Shown: piece after piece, positions 1-31,614 of the stretch
Layout: the number at the start of each line of letters is the position of its first letter
How positions within the stretch are numbered: position 1 is the first letter of the stretch
Source: an uncultured Bacilli bacterium
GTDB lineage: Bacteria; Bacillota_I; Bacilli_A; RF39; UBA660
Reading direction: 5' to 3'
Assembly: GCA_947624175.1 (NCBI GenBank)
Contig: CANQJD010000010.1
Location: 1 to 34,099 of the forward strand
DNA: 34,099 nucleotides
Notes under the pieces: generated by a model
Told to the model about the DNA's origin: nothing
Database searches by the model: none
What the model saw: only the letters and a program-made list of their open reading frames with translations
Translations under genes and position numbers: made by a program

Positions 1-1028
1 TAAATAATTATAGTAAAGATATATGGTATGAAATAGTATTAAAAGATGGAGATCCACCTGCTGATGAACTCAAAAGAACTGAAAGATTAAGAGATGACTT
101 ACTACGATTTAGGTTAGTAGAAGTAGTAGGAGAAGAAGAACAAGAAATATTTACAAATAGAGGCTATGAAGATATAAGTGATGAAACAATATATGTAAGT
201 ACAATAAATGCAAATACAACAGAAAAAATAACAAGAACCTATAGAATATATATGTGGATATCAGATAGTGTAAAAGTCGGAGTAGGAGATAATATAGATT
301 ATGATATGGAAACATGGAATAATGAAGTATATGCAAGTGTTAAGATAAATGTAGCAGGAGACTTTAATGAGAAAGAAGTAAATTATACTCCACTTCCTCA
401 ACCAGCATCATGTTTCATAACTCAAGAATTTCAAAATAATGGTAAAACTGAAATCATGATAACAGATTATGATACATCATGTGGAACTGATGTTGTAATA
501 CCAAGCAAAATAAATGGACATGAGGTAACAGTTATAGGAGACGATGAAGGCTATAATGAAGACTATATAATGCCTATTATTAACGGTGACCCTATGTCAT
601 TTAATTCTAAAAATTTAACAAGTGTAGTAATACCAAATACAGTAAGGACATTAGGAAGTTGGGCTTTTTCTAATAATAATCTGACAAAAGTAGAAATACC
701 AGATAGTGTAACTTGGATAGATGAAGGTGCTTTTGCTAATAATCCATTAGAAGAAGTAAAAGTCGGAAGTGGAATAGAGTATATAGGTTCAGATGCTTTT
801 GATGCTAAACCTAATTCAGATGATTATAGTAATTTTCAAAGATTAGAAATTGAGAAGACATGTGAAGAAATAAAGAATATACCAGCAAGTAAAAATGGTT
901 TAGAAGATAAATATTATCCATGGACACCAGCAACTCATAAAGAAGGATTAAAAGTCTATGGATATGGAGATGGAGAAATAATATTATGTGATACTAAAAT
1001 TATCAGATTTTCTCCCCCACCTTTTTAA
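1..1028 (+). CDS. BspA-type LRR surface protein, 5'-truncated by window edge
   Basis: The reading frame is open from base 3 to the TAA at 1026-1028, so only the C-terminal part is present. It aligns codon for codon with the second half of the complete paralogue at 8602-10125, starting at that protein's VNNYSKDIWYE segment. The first part is a beta-rich ectodomain of the kind following SipW/TasA-like signal anchors. The C-terminal part carries BspA-like (LRR_5) repeats: VVIPNTVRTLGSWAF, KVEIPDSVTWIDEGAF, and EVKVGSGIEYIGSDAF. These families are exported or cell-surface proteins that bind host or matrix ligands; the ligand here is unknown. The extreme C-terminus (RFSPPPF) differs from the paralogue. 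No LPXTG sorting motif is seen. The start and any upstream leader lie outside the window. Confidence 0.85.
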   Translation, partial: NNYSKDIWYEIVLKDGDPPADELKRTERLRDDLLRFRLVEVVGEEEQEIFTNRGYEDISDETIYVSTINANTTEKITRTYRIYMWISDSVKVGVGDNIDYDMETWNNEVYASVKINVAGDFNEKEVNYTPLPQPASCFITQEFQNNGKTEIMITDYDTSCGTDVVIPSKINGHEVTVIGDDEGYNEDYIMPIINGDPMSFNSKNLTSVVIPNTVRTLGSWAFSNNNLTKVEIPDSVTWIDEGAFANNPLEEVKVGSGIEYIGSDAFDAKPNSDDYSNFQRLEIEKTCEEIKNIPASKNGLEDKYYPWTPATHKEGLKVYGYGDGEIILCDTKIIRFSPPPF

Positions 1029-8341: not shown

Positions 8342-8372
8342 TAATTCATAAGTAGAAAGGAGTGACCCTCAT

Positions 8373-8441
8373 ATGATAAATATTATCAATGTAGCAAATA
8401 TGACTTGTCAACATACAGTTAACCATGGGGGGGGTTACTAA
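8373..8441 (+). CDS. Leader peptide A (22 aa, ends in a G8 tract)
   Basis: ATG 8373 to TAA 8439-8441. It is preceded by AGAAAGGAGTGA (8354-8365), which matches the complement of the 16S rRNA 3' end far beyond the usual SD. The last codons are CAT GGG GGG GGT TAC TAA, so the frame stops five bases after a run of eight G (8427-8434). G8 is very unusual in this AT-rich sequence. The same layout with an identical 18-nt motif recurs at 25406-25471 ahead of another surface-protein gene, but in a different codon phase. Conservation of bases rather than peptide suggests that the G tract itself matters. No known family is recognised. Confidence 0.6.
   Translation: MINIINVANMTCQHTVNHGGGY
8418..8435 (+). 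repeat. Conserved 18-nt G8 motif, copy A
   Basis: GTTAACCATGGGGGGGGT is identical at 25450-25467. These are the only runs of eight G (or C) noticed in the window. Each copy sits inside a leader ORF just before its stop codon. Confidence 0.85.
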
Positions 8442-8482: not shown

Positions 8483-8530
8483 AAACATAAAGTGTTTAGT
8501 ATAATAAATACTAGATTTCTTTATGTTTTT
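8483..8530 (+). terminator. Two-tier hairpin terminator/attenuator A
   Basis: The outer stem is AAACATAAAG (8483-8492) with CTTTATGTTT (8519-8528). The inner stem is TAGTAT (8497-8502) with ATACTA (8508-8513), and a T run closes the hairpin. Copy B (25511-25557) has the same two-stem plan with different paired bases in the outer stem, i.e. covariation, and the same GATTT 3' internal loop. Confidence 0.8.
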
Positions 8531-8548
8531 CGTTTGTAGAAAAAACAT

Positions 8549-8577
8549 TTGTAAAATATAAGTAAATAAAGTATAAT
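8549..8577 (+). promoter_or_regulatory. Promoter of full-length LRR surface gene
   Basis: TTGTAA (8549-8554), a 17-bp spacer and TATAAT (8572-8577), giving a start near 8584 and a short 5' UTR containing GGGAGGA. It lies downstream of terminator A, so this surface gene can be expressed independently of the leader. Confidence 0.8.
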
Positions 8578-8601
8578 TAGATTAGAATAGTGGGAGGATA
8601 T

Positions 8602-10125
8602 ATGATAAAAAGCAGTAATCATAAAAAGGGAGTAATGGTTGGAGTAATAGTAGCACTTCTTCTAGTAGTAACACTAGGAGTAACATTTGCAATCTATAAT
8701 TATTCAAAAGTAGGAGAAAATCAAATATTAGTAACCGGAGATATTTATATGAAATATACAGGAACTAATCAAATAAATGCACCAGATATGTTACCTATTG
8801 ATATTAATAATTATTATAGTGGTGGATATATAGTAAATCCAAATATGACAGAAGAAGAACTATCCAGTTGTGAGAGTTATTTTAATGAATTAAATGAAAC
8901 TTTAAGTGGAAGAGTGTTTCAAGAAGGAGAAACAGCCAAAGCATTTTGTGAGGGAACAGGAACGATTTTTAGTGAAACTACTTTTCAACAAGCACTTGAT
9001 ACTAATTTTTTTGATGATTCACCAGTTAATTTAGAAGAATTAAAAAGTCTAAATATAATAAAACAAGATACATCAAAAATAAAAGAAAATATACCATATT
9101 TTGAATTTAAAATAGAAGGAGTAAATAATTATAGTAAAGATATATGGTATGAAATAGTATTAAAGGATGGAGAACCACCAGCTGATGAACCAAAAAGAAC
9201 TGAAAGATTAAGAGATGACTTACTCCGATTTAGATTAGTAGAAGTAGTAGGAGAAGAAGAGAAAGAAATATTTACAAATAGAGGATATGAAGATATAAGT
9301 GATGAAAGAATATATGTAAATACAATAGGTGCAAATACTAAAGAAAAAATAACAAGAACATATAGAATATATATGTGGATATCAGATAGTGTAAAAGTCG
9401 GAGTAGGAGAAGATATTGATTATGATATGGAAACATGGAATAATGAAGTCTATGCAAGTGTAAAGATAAATGTAGCAGGAGACTTTAATGAAAAAGAAGT
9501 AAATTATACTCCACTTCCTCAACCAGCATCATGTTTCAAAACTCAAGAATTTGATAATAAAGGAACTACTGAAATCATGATAACAAATTATAATCCATCA
9601 TGTGGAAGAGAAGTAGTAATACCAAGCAAAATAAATGGACATGAGGTAACAGTTATAGGTAATAGTTCTGGTTATAATGAAAGTTATATAATGCCTATTG
9701 TTGTTGTACATGACCCTATGTCATTTTGTGGTAAAGGTTTAACAAGTGTAGTAATCCCAAATACAGTAAGGACAATAGGAAGTGTTGCTTTTGCTGGTAA
9801 TAATCTAACAAAAGTAGAAATACCAGATAGTGTAACTTGGATAGATGATAAGGCATTTCAAGATAATCCATTAGAAGAAGTAAAAGTCGGAAGTGGAATA
9901 GAGTATATAGGAAATGTGGCTTTTAATGCAGGTTCTTATAGTAATTTTCAAAGGTTAGAAATAAGGAAAACTTGCAATGAAATAAAGAATATACCAGATA
10001 AAAATGAAGTTATACAATATCCATGGACATGGGCAACCCATAAAGAAGGATTAAAAATCTATGGCTATGAAGAAGGGCAATTAACATTATGTGATACACA
10101 AATTAAAGGTATATCACCAGCATAA
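8602..10125 (+). CDS. TasA/SipW-class surface protein with BspA-like LRR domain
   Basis: ATG 8602 has GGGAGGA 4 nt upstream; a GTG four codons earlier would overlap that site and is rejected. The N-terminus is basic (MIKSSNHKKG), then a hydrophobic segment (about 11-30) ending in TFAIYNYSKVG, typical of SipW-processed TasA/CalY-like exports, followed by a beta-rich ectodomain (about 35-300). The C-terminus carries BspA/LRR_5 repeats (VVIPNTVRTIGSVAF, KVEIPDSVTWIDDKAF, EVKVGSGIEYIGNVAF). Length is 507 aa. There is no LPXTG. The part corresponding to 1-1028 is nearly identical in its first ~430 bases and then diverges in patches within the LRR region. Likely a surface adhesin or matrix protein; the ligand is unknown. 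The gene has its own promoter, leader element A upstream and a terminator copied in the paralogue. Confidence 0.88.
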   Translation: MIKSSNHKKGVMVGVIVALLLVVTLGVTFAIYNYSKVGENQILVTGDIYMKYTGTNQINAPDMLPIDINNYYSGGYIVNPNMTEEELSSCESYFNELNETLSGRVFQEGETAKAFCEGTGTIFSETTFQQALDTNFFDDSPVNLEELKSLNIIKQDTSKIKENIPYFEFKIEGVNNYSKDIWYEIVLKDGEPPADEPKRTERLRDDLLRFRLVEVVGEEEKEIFTNRGYEDISDERIYVNTIGANTKEKITRTYRIYMWISDSVKVGVGEDIDYDMETWNNEVYASVKINVAGDFNEKEVNYTPLPQPASCFKTQEFDNKGTTEIMITNYNPSCGREVVIPSKINGHEVTVIGNSSGYNESYIMPIVVVHDPMSFCGKGLTSVVIPNTVRTIGSVAFAGNNLTKVEIPDSVTWIDDKAFQDNPLEEVKVGSGIEYIGNVAFNAGSYSNFQRLEIRKTCNEIKNIPDKNEVIQYPWTWATHKEGLKIYGYEEGQLTLCDTQIKGISPA

Positions 10126-10131
10126 TAAACT

Positions 10132-10166
10132 AAAAAATTCTTAATTAATTTTAAGAGTTTTTTTTC
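10132..10166 (+). terminator. Rho-independent terminator after LRR surface gene
   Basis: The same ATTCTTAA...TTAAGAGT hairpin and T run as at 1036-1070. It begins a few bases after the tandem stop codons TAA TAA. Confidence 0.85.
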
Positions 10167-24298: not shown

Positions 24299-25384
24299 AT
24301 GCTTAGTGGATTAGAAATGGATCAATTAGCCAAGATAAAAGTTGTTGGAGTAGGTGGTGGAGGCGGCAATGCCGTCAATAGAATGATTGAAACAGGTGTA
24401 AAAGGTGTTGAGTTTATTGTTGCTAACACTGATTATCAAGTTTTATCAAAATCGAAAGCTGATGTTAAGATTCAACTTGGAAAACAACTAACGGAAGGAT
24501 TAGGAGCTGGGGGAAAACCAGAAGTAGGAAGAGAATCAGCTGTTGAATCCAAGAAAGAAATTGAAGAAGCATTGAAGGGCGCGGATATGATTTTCATTAC
24601 CTGTGGCATGGGTGGTGGAACTGGAACGGGAGCTGCTTCCATTGTTGCTGAAATTGCTCAAGGTTTAGGAGCATTAACTGTTGCTATTGTCACGAAACCA
24701 TTCTCATTTGAAGGCAAGAGAAGAATGGAAAATGCGATGGCTGGTCTTGAAGAATTAAAGAAACATGTTGATACTTTAATTGTTATTCCAAATGATCGAT
24801 TAAGAGAAATAATTGATAAATCAACTCCACTTCTTGAAGCTTTCAAGGAAGTGGATAATGTTCTTCGTCGTGGTGTGCAATCTATATCTGATTTAATTGC
24901 CGTTGTTGGACTTGTTAACTTGGATTTTGCTGATATTAAAGCTGTTATGGAAAAATCAGGAGATGCCATTATTGGAATTGGAATTGGAATGGGTGAAGAT
25001 AGGGCTGTTGAAGCGGCTAAACAAGCTGTTTCATCACCACTTCTTGAAACATCAATAACTGGAGCAACTGATGCTATTATTAATATAACTGGTGGTGTTA
25101 ACTTAACTTTATTTGAAGCTGAACAAGCGGCTGAAGTAGTCAGAAATGCTGCTAATAATGATATTAATACAATCTTTGGTTCTGTTATCAATGAAAATTT
25201 AACTGATGAAGTTATTGTAACCGTTATAGCAACGGGATTTAATAAACAAAAACCTCAAAAGCAAATCTATGATCAACAAGCTAGTAAAAATAAAGAAATC
25301 ACCATCATGGATGATGATGACGATGATGATGAAGGAGAATCAGAATATGATTTTCCACCATTCTTAAGAAATAGAAATTTTTAA
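24299..25384 (+). CDS. ftsZ: Cell division GTPase FtsZ
   Basis: 361 aa tubulin-like GTPase forming the Z ring. [18 protein letters not shown] (N-terminal nucleotide loop), [15 protein letters not shown] (tubulin signature), VIPNDRL, and [11 protein letters not shown] (T7 synergy region) are all present. The C-terminal linker is short and very acidic (a run of Asp codons with near-perfect GAT repeats, 25309-25332). It leads to the conserved tail peptide [12 protein letters not shown] that binds FtsA. Strong AAGGAGG before ATG 24299. No terminator is seen directly after it: leader element B and a surface gene follow within 200 nt. Confidence 0.97.
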
Positions 25385-25405
25385 TAGAAAGAAAGGAGTC
25401 CTCAT

Positions 25406-25471
25406 ATGGTAAAAAATAGTAATGTATCAAACTTATATGTTAACAATTTGTTAACCATGGGGGGGGTATAG
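25406..25471 (+). CDS. Leader peptide B (21 aa, ends in a G8 tract)
   Basis: ATG 25406 to TAG 25469-25471, starting 21 nt after ftsZ, with AGAAAGGAGTCCTC upstream (near-identical to AGAAAGGAGTGACCCTC of leader A). The end reads ACC ATG GGG GGG GTA TAG, the stop falling just after the same eight-G run (25459-25466). The leader has no evident promoter of its own and is probably transcribed from the ftsA-ftsZ promoter. The first 15 residues differ from leader A apart from an N-V-x-N pattern. No family is recognised. Confidence 0.6.
   Translation: MVKNSNVSNLYVNNLLTMGGV
25450..25467 (+). repeat. Conserved 18-nt G8 motif, copy B
   Basis: GTTAACCATGGGGGGGGT, identical to 8418-8435. In this copy GTTAAC also occurs once more 11 nt upstream (25439-25444). 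Confidence 0.85.
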
Positions 25472-25510
25472 CACCTAAGTATTTTTCTATAAAAAAAATA
25501 ATAAAAGAAC

Positions 25511-25557
25511 AACACTTAAGAATTAGTAACCTAGTTACTAGATTTTTAAGTGTTTTT
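25511..25557 (+). terminator. Two-tier hairpin terminator/attenuator B
   Basis: The outer stem is AACACTTAA (25511-25519) with TTAAGTGTT (25546-25554). The inner stem is TAGTAAC (25524-25530) with GTTACTA (25534-25540). A T run follows, and the surface-gene ATG is only 18 nt beyond it. No promoter fits between, so the surface gene depends on read-through. Confidence 0.82.
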
Positions 25558-25574
25558 ATGTTTGGAGGAAGTTT

Positions 25575-27101
25575 ATGAAAAGAAAAAATATAATGATTTT
25601 AATGATATCTTTAAGTTTAGTTTTATTATTAGGTTCAAGTTATGCACTTTTAAGGAGTACCCAAGTAGGAACTAATCCATATGTAATAAATGTTGGAACT
25701 TTACAAGTAACATTTGTAGATAGTGAAACAGAGTTTTTAAATCTTACTGATATGTATCCCATGAGTGATAAAGAAGGAAGTAGTCAAGATAAAGAACTTT
25801 CATTTATGGTTAAAAATACTGGAAATGTAGATTCTTACTATGATGTAACTTTAGAAGAAACAAGTACAAATCCGGAATTTAAGAGTGTAATAAGATATAT
25901 AATTAATAATGATGATAAAGGTTATAATGAACCTAAAACATTAGGAGAAAATAAATATATCGAAGTAGGGGGATATTTAAAACCTAATGAAAGTAGTAGT
26001 TATAAAGTAAAGATATGGTTAGATTATAATGCAGATAATAACTATATGGATAAAACTTTTACAGCTAAAGTAGCAATAAATAGTTTTCAAGAAAGCGAGT
26101 ATGCTAAAGATGTAATTAAGAGTAAATTAGTAAAATATTCTGAATCAAGTAAAGATGATTTTACTGGAGGACTTGTTGCAATAAATACAAATGGTGAGTT
26201 ATATAATGAAACTGATTTTAACCAAAAAATAAGAGAATATCGTTATTCTGGTCCTACTGTAAATAACTATGTAACATTTAATGATGAGTTATGGAGAATA
26301 ATAGGAGTATTCGAAGAAGAAAATGAGGAATTTGTAAAAATAGTTAGTAACAAATTATTAGAAAGTGATAAAATTCCTTTTAACTATCAAATTAGCAATA
26401 CAAATTATATTATAAAAACAAAGGAGCCATTTGATTATAGTCAGGGTGTTTATTGGAATAAAATTGAAGATGGTAATGCAAAATTAGATTGGACAACTTC
26501 TGGATTACAATATTATCTAAATACGGAAACGGATGAAAGTGTAGAAAATAAAGGATATTTTAACTATCTTTCAAGTGTTTCTAAAACTATGATTAGAGAA
26601 TCCAATTATTATTTGGGAAATATTCATATAGATGCAACAAATAGTTTTTCAAATTATGATAATACTATTTTGGCATATACTCATGAGCGAGATGAAAGCA
26701 ATATTTTCAGTGATCAAAAAAGTAGATGGACAGGGAAAGTCGCTTTAATGTATCCAAGTGATGTCGGATATGCAAATTTATCTAAAAATTGGAATCTTAA
26801 ACTGCATGTTATGCTAAATCAAAAAAATTATAATTGGATGTATAATACTATGGAAGATATTTTGAATAATGGTAATTGGCTTATTAGCAGAGGTGATGCC
26901 ACTTGGGCTGCTATGATTCTAGGTCGATCTGGAAGCCTTGGAACTTCAAATTATACTAAATTAGATAGTCTTGATGATGTTTATCAAACTTCCTTTATGT
27001 ATGATTATAATGTTCGACCTGCATTATATTTAAAAAGTAATGTTAAAATAACAAGTGGTGATGGAACCAGTGATAGTCCTTACGTTTTAACAATAAATTA
27101 A
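25575..27101 (+). CDS. TasA/SipW-class surface protein with YSGPTVNNYV module
   Basis: 508 aa. The N-terminal signal anchor NIMILMISLSLVLLLGSSYA is followed by LLRSTQVGTNPYVINVGTL, typical of SipW-processed TasA/CalY-like proteins. A beta-sandwich region (about 30-180) includes KNTGNVDSYYDVTL. The C-terminal module begins REYRYSGPTVNNYVTFNDEL followed by WRIIGVFEE, and ends RPALYLKSNVKITSGDGTSD-type sequence; it resembles DUF6273-like extracellular modules, an uncertain match. The same module makes up the C-terminus of the 30079 protein. GGAGGAAG precedes the ATG. It lies behind leader B and its terminator, 190 nt after ftsZ, with no visible promoter of its own. Surface location is well supported; function is unknown. 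Confidence 0.85.
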   Translation: MKRKNIMILMISLSLVLLLGSSYALLRSTQVGTNPYVINVGTLQVTFVDSETEFLNLTDMYPMSDKEGSSQDKELSFMVKNTGNVDSYYDVTLEETSTNPEFKSVIRYIINNDDKGYNEPKTLGENKYIEVGGYLKPNESSSYKVKIWLDYNADNNYMDKTFTAKVAINSFQESEYAKDVIKSKLVKYSESSKDDFTGGLVAINTNGELYNETDFNQKIREYRYSGPTVNNYVTFNDELWRIIGVFEEENEEFVKIVSNKLLESDKIPFNYQISNTNYIIKTKEPFDYSQGVYWNKIEDGNAKLDWTTSGLQYYLNTETDESVENKGYFNYLSSVSKTMIRESNYYLGNIHIDATNSFSNYDNTILAYTHERDESNIFSDQKSRWTGKVALMYPSDVGYANLSKNWNLKLHVMLNQKNYNWMYNTMEDILNNGNWLISRGDATWAAMILGRSGSLGTSNYTKLDSLDDVYQTSFMYDYNVRPALYLKSNVKITSGDGTSDSPYVLTIN

Positions 27102-27131
27102 AAACTGTTTGAAAATTCAAGCAGTTTTTTT
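27101..27131. terminator. Bidirectional terminator between convergent genes
   Basis: AAAACTG...CAGTTTT with inner TTGAA/TTCAA pairing, then a T run on plus. The hairpin overlaps the last codons of the minus-strand gene ending at 27117. Confidence 0.85.
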
Positions 27132-27647
27132 AAAACGAAATTTATTTAAAATTTTGCCAACGACAGCAACAATTTTATCAGCATTTTTAATTGCATATTT
27201 TTTACCTAGGGCTTTACCACCAACCGTTAAACTTGATATTAAACTTGAAATAAGTAAAGCTGTAATTGTAATATTAATTGTAGTTAAATTACTGAGTGTA
27301 ATTGCAATCATGGCTCCCATTGAACCAGAGACAATTCCACAAATATCACCAACAATGTCATTACAAAAACTAGCAATATTACTACTTTTTTTAATTAACT
27401 TAATTCCTTCTTTACTTCCTTTAACTTTATTAGAAGCCATCGCATGAAAACTTGCTTCTTTAGCAGTTAGAACACTAGTACCAATAATATCAAATATAAT
27501 TCCTATAATAATAATTACAACTGTAATTCCTAGTAAAATAAAAAAATTACAATAAGTTGAAATTGTATTTGAGATACCACTTACGATTAAAGAAATAAAA
27601 AAAGTGAGCAAGAAGGCTTTTATAATCCATGTATCTTTCCTCTTCAT
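27117..27647 (-). CDS. CorB/CNNM-like (DUF21-type) integral membrane protein
   Basis: 176 aa with about four membrane segments (FLLTFFISLIVSGISN; FFILLGITVVIIIIGIIFDI; the GIVSGSMGAMIAITL region; ITITALLISSLISSL). The conserved middle IGTSVLTAKEASFHAMASNK and NIASFCNDIVGDICGI resembles short Clostridia/Bacilli proteins usually labelled Mg/Co transporter CorB-like, which have the membrane core without CBS domains. Transport activity is not demonstrated for these. The start ATG 27647 has AAAGGAGCTAAA upstream. The gene lies at the end of a ~480-nt transcript leader (27660-28139) with strong promoter, so it may be controlled by RNA structure. The family assignment is moderate. Confidence 0.58.
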   Translation of the reverse strand: MKRKDTWIIKAFLLTFFISLIVSGISNTISTYCNFFILLGITVVIIIIGIIFDIIGTSVLTAKEASFHAMASNKVKGSKEGIKLIKKSSNIASFCNDIVGDICGIVSGSMGAMIAITLSNLTTINITITALLISSLISSLTVGGKALGKKYAIKNADKIVAVVGKILNKFRFKKTA

Positions 27648-27659
27648 TTTAGCTCCTTT

Positions 27660-28139
27660 ATTTATTAAAATGGTTTTGTAATGGTATGCTATAAATTAAT
27701 TTTACGGCTTGAGGTCGAGTTGACTTTCTCTGATTTCTACCACTAGTTACCCAGTTGGCTATTTCTATTTAAAGAAATCAATCAAGCGTTACCAATCTTG
27801 ATCACTCGATCACCACTTAGTCCGCACTTCAATCCTTATAGCACAAACACCCTAGAGGTTTTCCCTGATAGATAGTCTGTATTTTTATTCGCTTTTGCAG
27901 TATTTCTTTCAACCAAAAAGGTATCCCGTCAACCACGCACGACATGTACATATTTATATTACGAAGTGATAAAAGGATAACATTATATGCCATTATAACT
28001 TCTCCTTAAATCTAAAATTATATACACACCCTTCTTTGGGCAAGAACAGCATATATATAAAGTATCATTATCGTACAATTGATGGATTTTTAGCCCCATC
28101 TTCGAATACATTTATCTAACTAGGATAATGCACCATACA
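27660..28139 (-). ncRNA. Unidentified structured RNA or long structured leader
   Basis: About 480 nt without a convincing gene, behind a consensus minus-strand promoter. By hand count 27721-27960 has about 37% G+C, well above surrounding genes. Local pairings on the minus strand include GATGG/CCATC (near 28097 and 28081), GCCC/GGGT (near 28035), GATCAAG/CTTGATT (about 27803 and 27786) and ATTTCT/AGAAAT (about 27777 and 27763). CATTATC near 28129 can also pair with GATAATG near 28070. The landmarks of RNase P RNA, tmRNA, SRP RNA, T-box or M-box are not found. A 54-codon frame (27993-27829) with AAGGAGAAG upstream exists inside but looks incidental. No terminator separates it from the CorB-like gene. 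Confidence 0.5.
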
Positions 28140-28145
28140 ACGTAC

Positions 28146-28174
28146 ATTATACTATATTTTATGCTTTTTGTCAA
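28146..28174 (-). promoter_or_regulatory. Consensus promoter of the structured RNA
   Basis: Minus strand TTGACA (plus 28169-28174), 17 bp, TATAAT (plus 28146-28151): a perfect consensus, the strongest in the window. Confidence 0.9.
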
Positions 28175-30078: not shown

Positions 30079-31614
30079 ATGGAACCTAAATTAATAAGAA
30101 AAGATATAAAATATCAAAAGAAAACTTTAATAGTTGTAAGTCTTTTAGTAATAAGTTTATTTGTAGGTGGAAGTTTTGCTTTACTATCTAGTTCAGATGA
30201 AACAGAAGAAGTAGTAACTTTTAAAACTGGAAACTTTAATTTAGAAGCAAAAACAACTGGAACTTTAAGTTTAGATGGAGAAGTACCAAAGAGTTATGAT
30301 GATGGATTTAAGAATAATGATATAACGTTAACCTTAACTAATACAGGAAGTTTAGAAATTGGAAAATATGATGTTAAGTTAGAAGGAGATACTGGAACAA
30401 CACTTGATGCTAGTTATATTAGATATAGTGTCTCAGATGATGAAGGAAAAACCTATCTTGCATCTAAATTATTAAGTGAAACAAATAATATAATTTATAC
30501 AGGATATAGTTTGAAGACAACTAAAGTATTAAAAGTAAAGTTATGGATAGATGAAGCTGCAGGTGAAAATGCCTTAAAGAAAAGTTATAATGGAAAAATA
30601 AATGTTGAATTATATCAAAATGATGATACATTAGTAGATGTTGTAAAGAGTAAATTAGTAAGTAATTATTCTGGAAGTAATGAAAGTTTTGAAGGCGGAG
30701 TAGTAGCAGTTAATAATGATGGTAATTTATATCATGAAACAAACTCTGAAACTATAAGAGAATACCGTTATTCAGGGCCAACTGTTAATAATTATGTAAC
30801 ATTCAATGATGAAGTTTGGAGAATAGTTGGAGTATTTAAAGATGAAAATAATGAAGAAAATGTTAAAATAGTAAGAAATAATGCTTTATTAATTAGTGAT
30901 TTTCCAGTGAATTATACAATAAATGGAATTAAATATACAATAGGTGATACTACTACTACTGATAGAGCTTTTTGGAATTATGTTACTGGTACAAATAGTG
31001 ATAAAAATGATTGGACAACCGCAGGACTTCAGTATTGGTTAAATACTTATCAAGATGAAGAAGGAACTAATGGCTATTTAAGTAAACTTTCAAATACATC
31101 AGTACAGATGATTGCTGATAAAAAATATTATTTAGGGAATGCTCCTTTTGTAGCTTTAGCAAAAGTTATTTATAATGATGAAAGAAAAGATATAGTTTGT
31201 TCTTCTAATATAATAGAAAGATCTGATTTAAATAACTGCTATATATGGTATGGAAATAAATCTACTTGGACAGGAAAAGTAGGCTTATTATATCCAAGTG
31301 ATTGGGCTTATAGTGCTAATACTACATACTGGAATACAGAAAAGTTATCTGGATTTTCAAATGGTGCTAAAAATACTACTTGGATGTTTGAAACATTAAC
31401 ATTTAAATCAGCAGCACTTTTATTTATATCGCCAAGTCAGACATATAATTATTATGTTGTTAATGTAAGAGGAAATGATGGTAATGCTGGAGCCTATTTT
31501 GTAAATAAAAAAGATACTGGTGTTTCACTTCCATCACTTTATCTAAAAAGTAATGTTAAAATAACATCTGGTACAGGAGAACAAAGTAATCCTTATAAAT
31601 TAATACTTGAATAA
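30079..31614 (+). CDS. TasA/SipW-class surface protein, paralogue of 25575 product
   Basis: 511 aa. A basic N-terminus (KLIRKDIKYQKK) leads to the signal anchor TLIVVSLLVISLFVGGSFA and LLSSSDETEEVVTFKTGNF, the SipW-substrate style. A beta-rich region (about 50-190) follows. From about 230 it carries the module REYRYSGPTVNNYVTFNDEV and WRIVGVFKDEN shared with the 25575 protein, including KSTWTGKVGLLYPSDWAY, and ends LPSLYLKSNVKITSGTGE. TAGGTGAG precedes the ATG. It has its own promoter and a bidirectional terminator. No sortase motif. Probably exported and wall- or matrix-associated; ligand and function unknown. Its N-terminal half is only weakly similar to the other paralogue, whereas the C-terminal module is well conserved. 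Confidence 0.85.
   Translation: MEPKLIRKDIKYQKKTLIVVSLLVISLFVGGSFALLSSSDETEEVVTFKTGNFNLEAKTTGTLSLDGEVPKSYDDGFKNNDITLTLTNTGSLEIGKYDVKLEGDTGTTLDASYIRYSVSDDEGKTYLASKLLSETNNIIYTGYSLKTTKVLKVKLWIDEAAGENALKKSYNGKINVELYQNDDTLVDVVKSKLVSNYSGSNESFEGGVVAVNNDGNLYHETNSETIREYRYSGPTVNNYVTFNDEVWRIVGVFKDENNEENVKIVRNNALLISDFPVNYTINGIKYTIGDTTTTDRAFWNYVTGTNSDKNDWTTAGLQYWLNTYQDEEGTNGYLSKLSNTSVQMIADKKYYLGNAPFVALAKVIYNDERKDIVCSSNIIERSDLNNCYIWYGNKSTWTGKVGLLYPSDWAYSANTTYWNTEKLSGFSNGAKNTTWMFETLTFKSAALLFISPSQTYNYYVVNVRGNDGNAGAYFVNKKDTGVSLPSLYLKSNVKITSGTGEQSNPYKLILE

Follow-up and report, generated by a model that had tools for sequence, protein, structure and literature searches.

The closest described counterparts of the locus studied here are the pil1 and pil3 loci of Streptococcus gallolyticus, in which GCAGA repeats in a leader ORF shift its frame (Danne et al. 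2014, PMC3894217). There, pilus expression is low when the leader ends 28 nt or more ahead of the terminator, and high when it ends beside the terminator, within it or past it; this logic has experimental proof, and the effect of removing the leader ATG or the terminator was also tested (PMC3894217). The homopolymeric-tract contingency loci form a second related class, where poly-G or poly-C tracts in promoter spacers or within genes cause phase variation, e.g., in Neisseria, Campylobacter, and Bordetella (PMC2831843, PMC1891110).

We analysed a stretch of 34,099 nucleotides (hereafter, the window) from an uncultured Bacilli bacterium. The locus in question, leader B, lies just downstream of ftsZ and has the structural features of the pil1 type: a leader ORF, a repeat whose unit is not a multiple of three, a terminator with no later promoter, and a stop codon that is moved through the hairpin by repeat length. 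The features on which the analysis rests are the following.

8371–8440, + strand: paralogous leader A (L107), encoding MINIINVANMTCQHTVNHGGGY and a stop, with G8 at 8427–8434; by frame reading, G9 would pass its terminator.
24299–25384, + strand: ftsZ, the last gene of the ftsA–ftsZ pair (NCBIfam ftsZ, E 2.6e-124).
25392–25398, + strand: Shine-Dalgarno sequence (SD) AAAGGAG of leader ORF B (sequence).
25406–25471, + strand: leader ORF B at G8, the off form, 21 codons encoding MVKNSNVSNLYVNNLLTMGGV and a stop (frame reading and paralogous leaders).
25406–25578, + strand: long leader frame, open only with one added G or a -1 shift (frame reading).
25459–25466, + strand: G8 tract, the proposed slipped-strand switch, giving the long frame with G9 (sequence).
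25511–25557, + strand: intrinsic terminator, a hairpin AACACTTAAGAATTAGTAAC...GTTACTAGATTTTTAAGTGTT with a U-tract (dG -17.8 kcal/mol).
25575–27101, + strand: surface protein gene, 508 aa, with a signal/TM segment and a putative TasA-like beta-sandwich (sequence and structural match).
27102–27132, + strand: ancestral ftsZ terminator, apparently displaced by insertion of a cassette (alignment to congeners, from 5–20 nt past their ftsZ stop).

Leader B is a short ORF, predicted to be translated from its SD and the ATG at 25406; this start codon, like those of the other leaders, was inferred from SD and frame. A direct check of the sequence gives a gap of 21 nt between the ftsZ stop codon (25382–25384) and the ATG. 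With G8, frame 0 ends at the TAG at 25469–25471, 39 nt short of the hairpin. One more G, equivalent to a -1 shift, yields MVKNSNVSNLYVNNLLTMGGGIAPKYFSIKKIIKEQHLRISNLVTRFLSVFMFGGSL and a stop: this frame crosses the hairpin, reads the next SD as GGA GGA, and ends at the TGA at 25576–25578, which overlaps the ATG at 25575. The third frame stops at +9. By tract length, the stop therefore lies 32 nt short of the hairpin with G7, 39 nt short with G8, and beyond it with G9, the frame having run through. The preliminary description had claimed a second copy of the leader 21 nt after ftsZ, a frame-0 stop right after the tract, and a -1 frame running over hairpin and SD onto the start codon of the surface gene; the copy matches the sequence base for base, the stop was checked directly, and the elements of the -1 frame are all present.

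Folding places the hairpin at 25511–25554, with a U-tract that runs to 25557, and this terminator is the only firm hairpin in the fold of 25385–25600. Near-identical hairpins occur in leaders C6 and C21 and in others. The hairpin ends only 21 nt from the ATG of the surface gene, which leaves no room for a promoter between them, and no + strand promoter-like site scoring at least 9/12 was found in 25100–25575. Both results uphold the earlier statement that the terminator and the surface gene have no promoter between them, and the second makes the ftsZ transcript the likely source of leader B transcription. An Rfam scan at gathering thresholds and another at a low threshold returned no known RNA family at leader B.

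Comparison with congeners bears on how the locus arose. In those that keep the same neighbour, the sequence starting 5–66 nt after the ftsZ stop aligns to the window from 27102–27128 onward (244/291 identical in one example), and ftsZ is followed by a terminator and then by a convergent small membrane-protein gene (27117–27647 in the window). Of the 13 congeners whose sequence downstream of ftsZ is readable, not one has a G-tract there. The segment 25385–27101, comprising leader and surface gene, is thus most simply read as a cassette inserted between the ftsZ stop codon and the ftsZ terminator. The terminator of leader B would now both end the ftsA–ftsZ transcript and gate the surface gene. 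This neighbourhood also holds an OLE RNA (RF01071, 225.7 bits) at 27665–28152 on the - strand, followed by the small membrane protein gene (27117–27647, - strand) in the position expected for an OLE-associated protein; an OLE RNA is unusual for a gut MAG with a genome of 1.5 Mb.

The surface protein has no match in Pfam and NCBIfam, and is 40% identical to the product of 30079–31614 in the window. Its full-length structure prediction has too low a confidence (pLDDT 40), and the model of the domain next to the N-terminal signal/TM segment is of low to moderate confidence (pLDDT 58.6). Foldseek alone gave weak, mixed beta-sandwich matches to this domain; in a second look, the best structural match was TasA of Bacillus subtilis (5of2, Z 9.9, rmsd 2.6, 128 residues; 5of1, Z 9.7), the next unrelated rows being at Z 8. 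The genome also encodes signal peptidases of the TIGR02228 group, a further possible likeness to the TasA/SipW-dependent surface proteins of Bacillus. The protein differs from TasA in sequence (9% identity, from a low-confidence model) and in having an extra C-terminal region.

A plain search for G8 in the 1.48 Mb genome (G000) recovered about 30 distinct loci with G8 or G9 tracts, against 0.2 expected at 25.9% G+C. Almost every one immediately precedes a gene that encodes a signal/TM segment followed by a TasA-like or other secreted protein, and most are in leaders (about two dozen) before TasA-like surface genes. Four leaders of this genome have the form CATATG-(35–60)-CCATGGGGGGG: A (8370) and B in the window, C6, and C21. 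The tail of the A type, GGGGGGGTTACTAA, occurs at 12 places in the genome, 6 in G330, 3 in G395, 1 in G136, and 0 in the rest of the 386 family genomes, and its reversed control gave 0 matches. The exact motif GGGGGGGTTACTAACTAA, searched over all species genomes, was found only in two rabbit-gut MAGs named 'uncultured Bacilli bacterium' (Lapin-004 bin24 and Lapin-022 bin57), which are apparently G330 and G395; IMG/VR had none. When the 96-nt leader was used as a DNA query across the family, matches outside its own genome were at chance level, except for a short one to GGGGGGGGTTACTAACTAA that leads to G330 and G395. The pattern SD-ATG-N20-50-G8 is present in 61 of the 386 family genomes and 40 of the 150 genera, where it gives 433 matches and its reversal 51, both being summed totals in which overlapping matches count more than once. 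Tracts of G9 or longer occur in 65 of 117 genomes of the wider family (G9–G14 in the loci read).

The tracts stand in three contexts. The first is a leader ORF followed by a terminator, as in B. The second is the promoter spacer (TTGACA-N10-G8/9-TATAAT in G330, other spacings in G395 and G028), and the third lies within a gene, in its 5' coding part (L104, L129, and many in G278, G354, G414, and G174). Lengths seen in leaders elsewhere are G8, G9, G10, G12, and G13; tracts of sister genomes range overall from 8 to 14, and three genomes have G8 as their most frequent length. The promoter-spacer tracts (G8–G14, TTGACA...Gn...TATAAT-like) belong to secreted-protein genes in G330 (L146, L147, L150, L154, L155, L159), G395 (L135, L137–L139, L141), and G028 (L168–L170), and their layout is that of a predicted promoter-type phase variation beside the leader type. 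The module GTTARC-N5-GTCAAC-CAY-G8 of the leaders is also found in the 5' coding part of L104 (G000:C5:4268) and L129 (G000:C77:17247), as if it had spread as a unit.

Some of these loci, and others in the window, carry further peculiarities. At tract loci of G174, G278, G354, and G414 (L202–L205), the SD (GGAGG or GGAGAG) is matched about 30 nt downstream by CCTCC or CTCTCC, and the two change together between copies; a hairpin sequestering the SD beside the tract is possible. Leaders L109 (G000:C12:1-110) and L116 (G000:C20:1-68) are joined at different points to a common upstream sequence (..CTTGTCCAAAAATTATTCTAACTCCC), which suggests a rearrangement or the end of a mobile element. At L121 (G000:C30, - strand), the surface gene is broken a few codons past its start by the 5' end of a putative group II intron (GTGCGCCAG...). 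Two BspA-type LRR surface genes of the window (1–1028 and 8602–10125) share up to 93% identity across 300 nt and have the same terminator sequence at their ends (1035–1066 and 10133–10164), possibly by gene conversion or duplication.

For all leaders whose start could be identified, we computed where translation would stop at every tract length and how far that stop lies from the hairpin obtained by folding; L158 is truncated at the end of its contig, and the hairpin assigned to it is misplaced. One or more tract lengths modulo 3 bring the stop to 3 nt or less from the hairpin, or inside or beyond it, in 39 of the 40 leaders, and the exception (L143) is likewise truncated where its contig ends. 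In most, exactly one length reaches the hairpin and the others stop 16–52 nt upstream, and across the set the gaps are either at most 3 nt or at least 16 nt. Two lengths reach the hairpin in L101 and L130. The ATGA arrangement of leader B recurs in G395, another genus of the family: in L131 and L142 (stop +93, ATG +92), and in L132 and L133 (+96, +95). In the other leaders of G000 and G330, the long frame runs past the hairpin or ends in its 5' arm, and a ribosome reaching this arm should still block the hairpin. The short, or off, frame is the one found in 37/40 leaders, a larger share than the two thirds that chance would give (P about 1e-4), so that the assembled consensus usually shows the off state. 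Together with tracts that are mostly exactly G8, this means that little switching is visible in the assemblies.

These frames could be shifted in the DNA or by the ribosome. Most leaders have their long frame at n+1, but L103, L132, L133, L140, L179, and L187 have it at n-1, the on-length being G7 for L132, L133, and L140. Among the G9 paralogues, L112 already has the long frame, and homology indicates the same for L111. The end of contig C15 and the start of C44 share exactly the same 77 bases beginning at the tract, which fits a graph branch with mixed lengths, or paralogues. The n-1 loci, the promoter-spacer and intragenic tracts, and the G9 paralogues favour slipped-strand phase variation, and the shifting element is most likely the length of the DNA tract. 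The preliminary description had attributed the switch to a shifted ribosome: its proposal that the frame decides whether the terminator is covered and whether a ribosome is delivered through ATGA to the surface gene is supported by the comparison, but the same observations point to a shift in the DNA.

It appears unlikely to us that a fixed G8 brings about programmed -1 frameshifting, ribosomal or transcriptional, with a constant fraction of readthrough in every cell. Such frameshifting would account for the predominance of G8 in three genomes, for G GGG GGN as a possible slippery heptamer, and for the -1 frame being the long one in B and in most leaders of G000 and G330. However, the six loci with the long frame at n-1 need a shift in the wrong direction, which rules out such frameshifting as the general mechanism. 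Nor can ribosomes act on tracts in promoter spacers (L146, L147, L154, L155, L159, L168–L170). Tract lengths, moreover, range from G8 to G14, G9 paralogues exist, and no conserved stimulatory structure was found, the terminator alone forming a firm hairpin in the fold of 25385–25600.

It is very improbable that the terminator is simply that of the ftsZ operon, preceded by a small ORF of no significance whose -1 frame is open by chance. A single locus does show the pattern of one open and two closed frames with a chance of 0.08–0.35 in dinucleotide-preserving shuffles. Yet it is shown by 16/16 distinct leader–terminator spacers against 4.3 expected, for loci picked by architecture and not by frame, among which paralogues are not fully independent; when each of the 7 genera contributes a single spacer, the chance values multiply to 4e-5. 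Chance also fails to explain the excess of tracts, the conserved SD–ATG, the independent ATGA coupling in another genus, and the compensating indels. Compared with A, leader B lacks one base ahead of the tract and has gained one behind it; G9 remains the long frame in both register families, as selection on frame would leave it.

We give equally little credence to an attenuator of the trp type, in which stalling at rare GGG glycine codons would alter RNA folding and report on charged tRNA-Gly. Two or three Gly codons do lie near the leader end, and in C6 and C21 the segment GTTACTAA just past the tract is complementary to TTAGTAAC in the 5' arm of the terminator. This pairing is missing from B and from G330 and G395, the targets are surface proteins and not genes of glycine metabolism, the codon phase of the tract differs between A and B, and the scheme is unworkable for tracts in promoter spacers. 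A long-range stem CCCUC...GGGGG of the G000 leaders, considered as a riboswitch aptamer, was dropped because it is not conserved in G330 and G395.

That the short peptide (..NHGGGY type) is what functions, as a secreted or signalling product for which the tract merely codes, is the least probable of these readings: TCQHTVNHGGGY is almost exactly common to three leaders of the genome, and in several extended loci leader and surface gene each have a promoter of their own, but the peptides of other genomes share only the tract-encoded GGG, for which reason a function of the conserved NHGGGY was dropped, and B has lost the shared C-terminus by a change of frame while retaining tract, terminator, and long frame.

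We thus regard leader B as likely to be a phase-variable attenuator. This is supported by the confirmed frames, the 39/40 leaders and 16/16 spacers, the compensating indels, the tract excess, and the recurrence in the family, as well as by the promoter-spacer and intragenic tracts, the paralogues with a G9 long frame, the pil1 precedent, and ATGA in another genus. RNA polymerase leaving ftsA–ftsZ would transcribe the short leader ORF, with its good SD. At G8, translation would stop 39 nt before the hairpin, so that the hairpin would form, the terminator would close the ftsZ operon, and the surface gene would be off. Slipped-strand mispairing to G9 (or to a length equal to 9 modulo 3), given the tract instability that we infer for the living population, would switch the leader to the frame that stays open across the hairpin. 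A ribosome following the polymerase would then prevent termination and, ending in ATGA, could reinitiate at the start codon of the surface gene and turn it on.

A strong promoter-like site (10–11/12) follows the terminator in about a dozen loci of the genome, copy A included, so the leader cannot be their only switch. The simple switch of the preliminary description has a logic that fits B, but it does not extend to copy A (8370) and these other loci. Sites made of TTGTAA or TTGAAA, 17 nt, and TATAAT lie between terminator and surface gene at 8490–8600 in the window and in L101, L103, L110, L114, L118–L120, and L122.

On balance, we favour a broader scenario, in which this uncultured gut Bacilli family would run much of its surface proteome through three kinds of poly-G loci (leader attenuators, promoter spacers, and 5'-coding tracts), and in which the leader cassette would move as a unit and enter housekeeping operons such as ftsA–ftsZ, turning a terminator into a stochastic switch of a surface antigen. 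If so, translation-controlled attenuation by a slipping mononucleotide would be a genome-wide strategy in uncultured gut bacteria, beyond one streptococcal pilus. A single testable rule, whether the leader stops before or inside the hairpin, would predict from tract length alone which surface proteins are on, and existing metagenome reads could be used to track antigen switching in the gut. The ftsZ case would be that of a phase-variable cassette plugged into an essential operon with termination kept intact.

The mechanism class is already known from the GCAGA-repeat leader attenuator of pil1. As in pil1 and pil3, an SD-bearing leader ORF with a slip-prone repeat precedes surface genes and is followed by an intrinsic terminator, the repeat number decides whether the leader stops far short of the hairpin or within or past it, and the state is mostly off. 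Likewise, both forms of homopolymeric contingency locus, poly-G altering promoter spacing and poly-G altering the frame of a surface gene, occur in the sister genomes. The tract of B differs from these in lying in a separate leader ORF, where it would act on termination and not on the surface protein's own frame. Searches of open-access full texts found no report of a poly-G version of the leader attenuator, or of such loci in this bacterial group. The streptococcal repeat is a pentanucleotide at two pilus loci, whereas the leaders described here have a mononucleotide tract of G8–G13, number about two dozen in one genome, and extend to many genera; leader B, in addition, overlaps the downstream gene by ATGA and would ride on the ftsA–ftsZ transcript. 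What is new here is the mononucleotide tract, the genome-wide scale, the ATGA coupling, and the placement of a cassette between ftsZ and its terminator.
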